From contig NZ_CP036273.1 in the NCBI RefSeq assembly GCF_007747215.1, forward strand, positions 5,378,322 through 5,442,321: DNA of 64,000 nucleotides, read 5' to 3'. How positions within the stretch are numbered: position 1 is the stretch's first letter; every line of letters begins with the position of its first letter. Under the pieces are notes generated by a model. It saw nothing but the letters and a program-made list of their open reading frames with translations. It was not told the origin of the DNA and searched no databases. Shown here piece by piece: positions 4,687 through 48,000 of the stretch. Both the position numbers and the translations under genes were made by a program. The stretch comes from Urbifossiella limnaea (GTDB lineage Bacteria > Planctomycetota > Planctomycetia > Gemmatales > Gemmataceae).

Positions 4687-5322
4687 CTATCCCACTGTAC
4701 TACCGCGCGCGGCAGCAATCCACGCCGCCCGCAGCGCCGTGCTCGAAACGTCGGTGCGAAAGTCGGACTCCGCGAGCGCGACGAACAGCTCGGGGAACGG
4801 CCCACCTCCCCCGTCCCACGTTCGGAACACGCCCGCGGCATCGACCCGCCCGCCGACCACGACGCGGCAGCCGGTCGCCGCGAGTCGCGCCAGCGCCGCA
4901 TCCCGGAGGCGGTCGTCGTTCGCGTAATAGTGGCGGTCGACGAGGCGGACCGCCGTGTCGTACCCGACGACGAACGCGGCCCCGGGGAAGAGCTCGGCCT
5001 TCTCGGCGAACGTGGCCGCGCGGGTGACCCACACCGGCCCCGCGGCGGCGAACTGCGCAACGCGCCGCTCGACTTCGGCGGCGTCGAGATCCGGCTTGTC
5101 CACGTTGGCGACGCTGAGCTCGAACGCGACCGGCGTCCCGAGCCGCCGGGCCGCAACGGCCGCGAGCGAGACGTGGCCGTGGTGCAGCGGGTTGAACGAG
5201 CCCGGGAGGAGTGCCCGCGGCGGGGCATGACCCCGGACCACGGCCCCGCCGACAACGGGGTACGGGAACCGTACCGCCTCAGGACCCGGTGCAGGGGCGT
5301 GGGGCATGGGGGTTCTCGTCAC
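4687..5322 (-). CDS. NadD-like nucleotidyltransferase
   Basis: A 211-residue protein with the nucleotidyltransferase signature LLPGSFNPLHHGHVSLA (about residues 38-54), in which HxGH is intact, and a C-terminal DVSSTALR corresponding to the ISSTxxR motif. These mark the HIGH-superfamily adenylyl/cytidylyltransferases such as NadD. It lacks other clear NadD hallmarks, so the nucleotide and acceptor are unknown. The GTG start (5320-5322) overlaps the msrA stop as GTGA, favouring it over the ATG at 5305-5307. It lies between msrA and BI-1 in one tightly packed unit. Confidence 0.75.
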   Translation of the reverse strand: MTRTPMPHAPAPGPEAVRFPYPVVGGAVVRGHAPPRALLPGSFNPLHHGHVSLAAVAARRLGTPVAFELSVANVDKPDLDAAEVERRVAQFAAAGPVWVTRAATFAEKAELFPGAAFVVGYDTAVRLVDRHYYANDDRLRDAALARLAATGCRVVVGGRVDAAGVFRTWDGGGGPFPELFVALAESDFRTDVSSTALRAAWIAAARGSTVG

Positions 5323-44844: not shown

Positions 44845-46416
44845 TCAGTACCCTTCGTCGGGCGGGAACAGCGACCGCAACAGCCGGGCGGACAGGTCGA
44901 ACGCCGGGGTGAACGCCAGCTCAACGGCCGCAACCTGACTGACGCGCACCTCCATCGCCGTGACGCGACCGAGCGGCAGACCGTCGAGGAACCCGCGGAC
45001 GGGCCGCTTGCCGGGGTCGCCGGTGCTGGTCATCTTCACGACGGTGTCGTCGGGCAGGGCCAGCGGCTTCCAGAACCGCGGGTGGAAGACGTTCGACCCG
45101 GCCAGGGTGAGCACGGGCGAACTGAGCGGCACCGGCGTGCCGCCCATGGCGCGGGCGTAGGCGCTGGACCCGGACGGCGTCGCCATCAGCAGGCCATCGC
45201 ACACCACTTTCTTGAGCCGCGTCTCGCCGTCCACGTCGACGCGGAGCCACGCCCCCTGGCCGCTGTCGCGCTCGACCCAGGCGTCGTTGAAGCCCAGCCC
45301 GCGGCCCTCCACGCCGTCGTCGGTCACGTAATCGACGCGGAGCATCGGCATGCGGTGGAGGACGAACTCGGCGCCGTGGAGGTCAGCGGAGACGATCTCG
45401 TTCATGAGGTGGCCGAGGTGGCCGGCGTTGAGCCCGAGGAACGGCCGCCGCAGCCGCCAGTGCTGCCGGATGGCGTGGAGCATCGTGCCGTCGCCGCCGA
45501 CGACCAGGATGAGGTTCGGGTCCGGGTCTTCGAGGTGGCGGAAGGCGGCGGCGCGGTCCTGGGCCTCCTTCTGCGGGCCGCAGACGATCAGGAGCCGCGG
45601 GCGGTCGAAGCGGGTGCGCACCTCGCCGCGCGGGATGGCGCTGGTGAACAGCCCGTGCCGGCGGATGTACTCGGCGACGGAGGGGCAGACGAACCCCTCG
45701 ATGGCGTCGGCCCCGCCGTTGAACACCATCGCCCGCACATCTGCGGTGGGCATGTGGCCGTCGATTTCGAGCAACTGATGGTGCGGCGGCAGGTCGGCGG
45801 CGGCGGGCGGCGAGCCCGGCGGGTGGTACACGACGAACCGCGACTGCTGCCACATCCGCGCGCCGTCCTCCCAGCGCGTCTGCACCACCGACGTACCCTC
45901 GGCCCCGCCGGCGACGAACTCGTCGGACACGACGTGCCACACCTCGCCGCGGGCGGCGTACTTCCGCTCCAGCGCGGCGTGCGGGGTGAACCGCTGGTCG
46001 TCGAGGTCGTCCAGGTCGATGGTGACGCCGGGGGCGTCGGCGAACGCCAGGTCGGTCATCACGGCGCGGTGGATGGACGCCGCGTGTTCGGCCTCGGGCC
46101 GGTCGGGGCGTGGGAAGTCCGGGCGGAGCACCACCTCGGCGAAGCCGCCGGCGCGGAGGCGGTCGGCGCCGTCGCGGTGAAAGCGGGTGGGCGGGTCGAA
46201 GTAGCCGGCGTACAGGGCGATGCGGCGGGCCGAGAGGACCGCGGGAACTGGTACGGCGTCGGGCGGCGGTTCGACCTGGGCCGCGGCGGCGAGTTCGTCG
46301 GCGTCCCACCCGCGGGCGGCGCAGAGTGCCCGCGCGGCGGCGAGGACGGCGCCGACGGCGGCGGGGTCGTCGGGGTCGGCGGCGGCGCGGCGGGCGGCGG
46401 TGGCGAGGTCGGTCAT
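44845..46416 (-). CDS. Fused NadD-like nucleotidyltransferase and NAD kinase
   Basis: A 523-residue protein. Residues about 1-60 are an Ala-rich lead. About 63-255 is a NadD-like nucleotidyltransferase: LYAGYFDPPTRFHRDGADRL, in which the first His of HxGH is replaced by Thr while the second remains, and TADVRAM in the place of ISSTxVR. About 265-523 is an NAD kinase: VVGGDGTMLHAI (GGDGT, about 307), FLGLNAGHLGHL, and MATPSGSSAYARAMGG (substrate and ATP loop). NAD kinase turns NAD into NADP. The NadD part may be inactive or specific for another nucleotide. A separate NadD-like gene with intact HxGH is at 4687-5322. Confidence 0.85.
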   Translation of the reverse strand: MTDLATAARRAAADPDDPAAVGAVLAAARALCAARGWDADELAAAAQVEPPPDAVPVPAVLSARRIALYAGYFDPPTRFHRDGADRLRAGGFAEVVLRPDFPRPDRPEAEHAASIHRAVMTDLAFADAPGVTIDLDDLDDQRFTPHAALERKYAARGEVWHVVSDEFVAGGAEGTSVVQTRWEDGARMWQQSRFVVYHPPGSPPAAADLPPHHQLLEIDGHMPTADVRAMVFNGGADAIEGFVCPSVAEYIRRHGLFTSAIPRGEVRTRFDRPRLLIVCGPQKEAQDRAAAFRHLEDPDPNLILVVGGDGTMLHAIRQHWRLRRPFLGLNAGHLGHLMNEIVSADLHGAEFVLHRMPMLRVDYVTDDGVEGRGLGFNDAWVERDSGQGAWLRVDVDGETRLKKVVCDGLLMATPSGSSAYARAMGGTPVPLSSPVLTLAGSNVFHPRFWKPLALPDDTVVKMTSTGDPGKRPVRGFLDGLPLGRVTAMEVRVSQVAAVELAFTPAFDLSARLLRSLFPPDEGY

Positions 46417-46433: not shown

Positions 46434-47618
46434 TCAGCGCGCCGGGGCGAACGCAGCCGTCACTTGCAAGCCCACGAACCGAGCCGCGACCGGCGCGCTC
46501 CCGGCGTCGAGCCGGGCCGTGACCTCGACCACGCGGCGGTCGGCGTCCTCGCGCGGGCCGAGCGGGAAGACCTGGTTGCGGGCGATCATGCGGGCCACGT
46601 CCGACTCCGACTTCAGCACGCCCTTCAGCGGCCTCGGCAGCGCCGGGTGTGTGATCTCGACCGGGACCGGCCCGGCCTTCACCCACTCGCTCAGGCGGTC
46701 CACGTCGGACTCGTACACTTCTGCGACCACGACCATGTCGCCGAGCGCCGCCATCTGCAACACCGGCTCGCCGGCCCCGGTCGGCTGGCCGGCCCGCCCT
46801 GCGACGCGGAGCACCACGCCATCGACCGGAGCCGTCAGCGTCGCCAGTTCGAGTGCCTTGCGGGCGACGGTCAGCTTCTCCTCGCCGGACTTCACCGGGG
46901 CGCGGGCCTCCGCTTCGGCCAGTTCCGCCTCCGCGGCCTTGACCCGCGCTTCGGCGGCGGTGCGGCTGCCGGCGTAGGTCGCCGCCGCCTTCTCCCGCGC
47001 CGCCGTCGTCGCGGTCAGCTCGGCGTCGGCCTGGTCGATCAGCAGCCGAACCTTGTCGAGGTCCTCGTCGGCGATGCGGGCGCCGGCGGCGCGGGCGTCG
47101 GCGATACGGGCCAGTTGCCGGGCGGCGGCGTCGCGCTGCTTGACCACCAGACTGGCTTTCGCGTCCAGCGCTGCCAGGTCGGCCTTCTCGCCGGCCTGCG
47201 CGGAAGCGATCTCCGCCTTCGCGGCAGCGATCTTCTTCGCCCCCGCCTCCGTCGCCGCGGCGACGGCCGCCTTCGCCTCGGCCAGCTGCACCTCGGCCAC
47301 CTTCACTTCGGCGGCCCGGATGTCGCGACTGGCCAGCACCGCGATCGCGTCGCCGGCCTTCAACTTGTCGCCGGGGGCGAGCGGCCTCATCTCGGAGAGG
47401 CGGTCGCCCGGCGGGCCGTATACGGGAACCACGCCGCCCGCCGGCTGGATGCGGCCCAGCGCCGCGACGCGGGTCGGCGCCGGGCCGTCGGTGCGCCCGG
47501 AGTGGGGCTGTACGACGGGGGCTGGGAGGAAAAGGTAGTAGACGACGGCGCCACCCGCCGCGAAGGCGACCAGGACCACCAGCAGGGTCACCCACGCGCG
47601 GGCATCGCGGCGGACCAC
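46434..47618 (-). CDS. HlyD/DevB-type membrane fusion protein
   Basis: A 394-residue protein. A short N-terminal basic stretch and one membrane helix (WVTLLVVLVAFAAGGAVVYYLF) lead to the first half of a lipoyl domain (PAGGVVPVYGPPGDRL), a long coiled-coil hairpin rich in Ala/Glu/Lys (about 120-270), the second lipoyl half (LTAPVDGVVLRVAGRAGQP) and a beta-barrel domain. This is the periplasmic adaptor of an ABC exporter, most like DevB. No ABC permease or ATPase gene stands next to it. The GTG at 47616-47618 has GGAGG upstream. Confidence 0.85.
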   Translation of the reverse strand: MVRRDARAWVTLLVVLVAFAAGGAVVYYLFLPAPVVQPHSGRTDGPAPTRVAALGRIQPAGGVVPVYGPPGDRLSEMRPLAPGDKLKAGDAIAVLASRDIRAAEVKVAEVQLAEAKAAVAAATEAGAKKIAAAKAEIASAQAGEKADLAALDAKASLVVKQRDAAARQLARIADARAAGARIADEDLDKVRLLIDQADAELTATTAAREKAAATYAGSRTAAEARVKAAEAELAEAEARAPVKSGEEKLTVARKALELATLTAPVDGVVLRVAGRAGQPTGAGEPVLQMAALGDMVVVAEVYESDVDRLSEWVKAGPVPVEITHPALPRPLKGVLKSESDVARMIARNQVFPLGPREDADRRVVEVTARLDAGSAPVAARFVGLQVTAAFAPAR

Positions 47619-47634
47619 ACCTCGCCCTCCCGTG

Positions 47635-48000
47635 CTACACGGCCCCGTAGGACACCACGCCGCCGGCGAACAGCGCCCACCACGCCACCTTGCACAGCAC
47701 GTGCAGCCCCTGGTCGATGTGGATGCTGTACAGCTTCTCACACTTCCCCAGGTCGATGAACCAGTGGAGGATCGTCTCGGCGAACCCGAACATGACGGCG
47801 ACTTCGTACTGGGCGCCGGACCACCGGACGATCACACCAACGGCTGCCCCGTGCAGCAAGGCGTGCGCCGACAGCCAGTAGTACCAGGGAACGGCTTGCT
47901 GGAGCGGGTTGGTCGTCCGCCGACACTTGCACGCCGCCATCGCGTCGTTCTGAAGCGAGTAATCCATCAGGGCGTGGCCGGCGAGCAGGAAGAACAGCAT
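47635..48000 (-). CDS. DUF3307-like membrane protein
   Basis: A 121-residue protein: LLAGHALMDYSLQNDAMA at the start, a His-rich helix WYYWLSAHALLHGAAVGVIV, and LHWFIDLGKCEKLYSIHIDQ near the end, all typical of DUF3307, whose function is unknown. Several His and Asp residues in membrane helices suggest metal binding. It stops 16 bases before the membrane fusion protein start and may be co-transcribed with it. Confidence 0.75.
   Translation of the reverse strand: MLFFLLAGHALMDYSLQNDAMAACKCRRTTNPLQQAVPWYYWLSAHALLHGAAVGVIVRWSGAQYEVAVMFGFAETILHWFIDLGKCEKLYSIHIDQGLHVLCKVAWWALFAGGVVSYGAV

Follow-up and report, generated by a model that had tools for sequence, protein, structure and literature searches.

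The 64,000-nucleotide stretch of DNA analysed here (the window) carries on its minus strand a gene coding for a NadD-like domain fused to a NAD kinase. Its open reading frame comprises 523 codons from a plausible ATG at position 46416 (minus strand, 46416..44845), and its limits are exactly those proposed in an earlier sequence-only reading, 44845..46416, which had left the strand unstated; the frame is open for 916 codons when counted from the nearest upstream GTG. Within the 523-aa product, delimited by ORF reading and by its orthologues, a short N-terminal stub (aa 20-45; 46282..46359, minus strand) resembles the C-terminal helices of a domain of MazG type. It is followed on the same strand by a NadD-fold half (aa 63-258; 45643..46230) and a NAD kinase half (aa 270-519; 44860..45609). 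Alignment with H16, G18 and H19 of Escherichia coli NadD places the HxGH motif at T77-R78-F79-H80 (46177..46188, minus strand), and the equivalent of SSTxIR reads PTADVR (aa 223-228; 45733..45750, minus strand). In the kinase half, GGDGT (aa 307-311; 45484..45498, minus strand) is invariant across the fusion family, and motif conservation assigns DGLLMATPSGSSAY (aa 407-420; 45157..45198, minus strand) to the NAD/ATP site of NadK.

A gene coding for an HlyD-type membrane fusion protein (46434..47741, minus strand) lies directly upstream of the fusion gene with a gap of 17 bp, and the two may be co-transcribed. All-against-all BLAST of the flanking frames revealed no neighbour family shared around the fusion genes, the clusters obtained being mostly shadow frames of the fusion gene itself. 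About 40 kb away, the window also codes for a 211-aa CTP_transf_like protein (4687..5322, minus strand; PF01467, 31.7 bits), in which the motifs GSFNPLHHGH and SSTALR are intact and which matches NadD weakly (17.9 bits).

The fusion of NadD and NadK that the sequence-only reading had recognized was confirmed by profile matches, by orthologues and by predicted structures. Orthologues whose identity is 81%, 66%, 56% or as low as 42-43% retain both halves, and AlphaFold models of the two parts match NADK and NadD, indicating that the fusion is not due to chance.

The kinase half matches PF01513 with 39 bits, above the Pfam gathering score of 25.5, while its match to the C-terminal NAD kinase domain PF20143 (21.2 bits) lies slightly below the cut-off of 23.7 and its match to NF003406 (145.7 bits) lies under the equivalog cut-off of 211; NAD kinase motifs and fold are present. 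In the AlphaFold model of the whole chain (pLDDT 86), this half aligns with the NADK of Pseudomonas aeruginosa (7qvs; VIA-align Z 25.3, rmsd 2.8 over 247 residues). GGDGT (307-311) and TPSGSSAY (413-420) are both there as first read. Among 42 kinases of the clade, GGDG, D177 and Y190 are each found in all 42 and DG..T..GS..Y is conserved; the Asn of the NE motif is replaced in about half of the fusion family. In 34 of the 38 carriers tested (7/9 and 27/29), including the complete genome of the window, no NAD kinase other than the fusion exceeds the Pfam cut-off; the exceptions are G015, G046, G201 and G383. Three carriers outside the window's class (G474, G558 and G749) contain another match above the cut-off besides the fusion. 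A second NadK hidden in the window's own genome was sought and rejected: PF01513 matches L007 and L008 read as DAGK/YegS-like proteins, and two further matches (L009 and L010; 16.7 and 12.4 bits) fall below the cut-off. Based on the motifs, on the essentiality of NADP and on its status as sole kinase, the C-terminal half is predicted to phosphorylate NAD.

When the whole chain was submitted to a fold search, the matches listed were all NADK, and the N-terminal half was therefore modelled alone (pLDDT 82). The resulting structure has a NadD fold (VIA-align Z 19.9 to NadD 9fyb_A, rmsd 2.3 over 177 residues, compared to a Z of 13.7 for PPAT). The NadD model TIGR00482 matches aa 68-256 with 29.1 bits, below its curated cut-off of 112.45. 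FDPPTRFH (73-80) had been read in this half as a damaged HxGH motif in which Thr replaces the first catalytic His, a view that holds in part. The motif is altered (TRFH), the half is unlikely to carry out normal NaMN adenylylation, and nearly all relatives have Thr, Gly or Ser, any residue, then Phe, His or Tyr, and His at this place. However, the motif of the nucleotidyltransferase superfamily is T/HxGH (PMC1249556), so an initial Thr alone does not amount to damage. The window motif departs even from this broader form, since Thr and His are there but Gly has become Phe. The usable His that the sequence-only reading would have counted against damage is half present: the second His is kept as His80 and the first is Thr.

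The case for loss of activity rests on several positions together. We aligned 40 fusion NadD halves with E. coli NadD, whose numbering is used here. H16 is kept in one of the 40, G18 in none, H45 in none, G107 in two and R134 in three; D109 is kept in 15 and replaced by Glu in 19. In contrast, H19 is kept in 36, W117 in 39 and R185, which corresponds to the invariant Arg228 of the window protein, in all 40. Stronger signs of erosion than Thr77 in the window protein are the replacements of Gly18 by Phe, Gly107 by Ser, Arg134 by Pro and His45 by Asp; K46 to R (Arg being E. coli's own residue), D109 to E and S181 to T are milder. Of 17 active-site positions that are invariant in NadD, nine are kept in the window protein, 7-10 in most Gemmataceae and 13-14 in carriers outside the class, whose NadD half is near-intact with HxGH rewritten as GxHH (AxHH in G474, SxHH in L092) and H45 replaced by Asp. 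The fusions L250, L251 and L254-L261 are of this kind (AxHH in L250). Conserved across the fusion NadD halves are Arg228, Phe73, Pro75, Trp182 and mostly His80, and R81, W189, F194, D208 and P210 are conserved residues specific to the family.

The search for a standard NadD elsewhere in the genome, which the sequence-only reading had proposed, located one at C1:5210540-5211124 (169 bits). Two further sets of genomes were searched for a standard NadD above the cut-off, which is present in 11 of the 13 genomes of one set and in all 33 of the other. The two genomes without such a match are G001, which is 84% complete, and G020, in which a fragment at a contig end matches. HxGH is intact in all 42 stand-alone NadDs read. 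Since a separate NadD with an intact motif is found in the window genome and in nearly every carrier tested, NaMN adenylylation does not depend on the fused half.

A search with the window protein gave a match somewhere in 52 of 59 genomes, with both halves in nine, the window included. Among 397 genomes of the class, 45 were matched by a profile of nine fusions. Four of the 45 (genus g51) code for a kinase that lacks the NadD half, and in three others (G011, G208 and G313) the gene is cut or broken; in all, the fusion is present in about 39 of the 397. Frame changes or stops, or splitting over contigs, are seen in L209 (G208:C21:2536-4036) and in G011 (C101 and C348). Two planctomycete genomes at a greater distance carry the fusion as well, as do 10 of 286 genomes sampled from the class to which G749, a Chthoniobacteraceae (Verrucomicrobiota) carrier, belongs. 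Among members of the window's genus, the fusion is present in G001 and G003, whereas G002, G004 and G005 have a standard NAD kinase in its place. In the kinase tree, the fused sequences group in a single clade, separate from the standard planctomycete NadKs (SH-aLRT 100; 100/98 in a second tree). This patchy distribution suggests transfer with replacement of the native NadK; the family is old, is present in two phyla and has apparently been passed between lineages. The g51 kinases are nested inside the fusion clade. They were kept alone and are the sole NadK of their genomes, showing that in this genus the kinase can work in the absence of the NadD half. Across 12 close pairs, the NadD half is under purifying selection, weaker than that on the kinase: dN/dS is 0.07-0.33 for the NadD half compared to 0.01-0.17 for the kinase, and is always higher in the former.

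In three relatives (L205, L207 and L206 of G201, G341 and G373, respectively), a longer protein consists of a MazG-like part, a NadD-like copy, an eroded NadD half and the kinase. HxGH is intact in the first NadD copy of G201 and G373 and reads DNHH in that of G341. The MazG model PF03819 reaches at most 22.2 bits in these chains against a cut-off of 22 and does not match the first 80 aa of the window protein. A profile built from the MazG part of the three chains scored 30.8 bits in G003 and 12.9 bits in the window protein, values that none of 1000 shuffles reached; the first 60 residues of the proteins of the window's genus thus appear to contain a stub of this part. A stand-alone MazG-NadD protein as source was considered and rejected, since apart from the three four-part chains the 397 genomes yielded none. 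The tree of the kinases places the four-part sequences at the base of the fused clade without resolving their order, compatible with derivation of two-part from four-part proteins or the reverse.

The explanation we favour, with a probability of roughly 0.55, is that the organism's only NAD kinase is fused to a NadD-fold domain that has been retired from NaMN adenylylation and kept for structure or regulation. The C-terminal half would convert NAD and ATP to NADP, and the N-terminal half would either hold the kinase oligomer together or bind a nucleotide to tune the kinase. Conservation of Arg228, Phe73, Pro75, Trp182 and mostly His80 argues for a retained ligand site, and the NadD half would be a folded, probably nucleotide-binding part of the kinase. 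Both the loss of adenylyltransferase activity and the structural or regulatory role are what we infer from these observations. The occurrence of near-intact, eroded and lost NadD halves in different lineages suggests repeated retirement of a half that was ancestrally an enzyme. Two points bear against regulation: the residues specific to the family could be marks of a new activity, and loss of the half in g51 speaks against an essential regulatory role. Some residual chemistry is possible, His80 and Arg228 being kept and the changes at K46, D109 and S181 being mild. A bolder version, which we put forward tentatively and hold to be distinctly less probable than the retired domain, is that the NadD half acts in cis on the organism's sole NAD kinase as a new nucleotidyltransferase of GxHH/TxxH type or as a sensor of NAD precursors. 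If true, a built-in, repurposed domain of NAD synthesis sets the supply of NADP.

A related but rather unlikely alternative is a bifunctional enzyme whose NadD half is a nucleotidyltransferase with a changed acceptor (TxxH/GxHH), such as another mononucleotide or a phosphate ester. The second His, Arg228, GxF[DN]P and the Trp are kept, as are R81, an R/PxD loop, W189 and F194, which are specific to the family. Outside the class, nearly all ATP-side residues, K46, G107, D109, R134 and SST-R are intact, with only HxGH changed to GxHH and H45 to Asp; judging from these residues, another acceptor is a live possibility for the near-intact halves. In the Gemmataceae, however, the G107, R134 and SST positions decay too, lineage by lineage, up to loss of the domain in g51. 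We consider it improbable that the half is merely an inert passenger left over from a larger MazG-NadD-NadD-NadK chain and kept only through its tether to an essential kinase. The MazG stub in the window's genus, the existing four-part relatives, the lower constraint on the NadD half and its complete loss in g51 would all fit a passenger, but dN/dS lies far under 1, many positions are invariant across two phyla and the half persists in most carriers.

It is also improbable that the half is a working NMN/NaMN adenylyltransferase, with which the chain would carry NMN and ATP through two consecutive steps to NADP. The sequence-only reading had described two steps of NAD(P) synthesis joined in one chain; both folds are indeed those of NAD(P) enzymes, but on the NaMN route NadE acts between them, and only NMN as substrate would make the steps consecutive. 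TxGH is a normal variant of the superfamily, and E. coli NadD retains 0.62% of its activity in the H19A mutant, 0.038% in D109A and 4% in H45A (PMC1249556), the first of these showing that loss of a single residue is not all-or-none. Against this stand the Asp at the pyridine-stacking H45, the Phe, Ser and Pro at G18, G107 and R134, and the dedicated NadD retained by carriers. An artefact of assembly or gene calling, which the sequence-only reading expected to betray itself by loss of the fusion in all relatives, deserves virtually no credence and was rejected, since dozens of independent genomes retain the fusion, several being single-contig assemblies, and the window contig is a complete 7.8-Mb chromosome.

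None of the open-access papers searched describes a NadD-NadK fusion, and NCBIfam has no model for it. The two parts are members of known families, and the novelty lies in their architecture and in the graded decay of the NadD half. The NADP pool is controlled by NAD kinase, and a built-in NadD-like domain would offer a case for how an enzyme domain turns regulatory, and the near-intact, eroded and lost states among relatives make this question of domain repurposing testable by comparison. For annotators, these proteins should not be labelled as bifunctional NadD/NadK.

Compared with known systems, the N-terminal half resembles NadD (TIGR00482) in its full fold, with a Z of about 20 compared to about 13.7 for PPAT, but differs in lacking HxGH, H45, G107 and R134, in its sub-threshold profile score and in being fused to NadK. 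CoaD, the phosphopantetheine adenylyltransferase of TxGH type, has a T/HxGH motif with Thr first; the window motif likewise begins with Thr and ends with His, but is devoid of the Gly, and the fold score to PPAT is clearly lower than that to NadD. The kinase half shares fold, GGDGT and DG..TP.GS..Y with NAD kinases of the NF003406/PRK04761 type (PF01513). NF003406 is its best NCBIfam match and proteobacterial kinases of this type are the nearest outgroup of the fused kinases in the tree, from which the fusion differs by the extra N-terminal NadD domain, a score of 145.7 instead of 211 bits and an often replaced NE-motif Asn. NadM-Nudix, NadR and glutamine-dependent NadE are other fused enzymes of NAD metabolism in which both halves are regarded as working domains; the protein described here is likewise a fusion within this metabolism, but with other partners.
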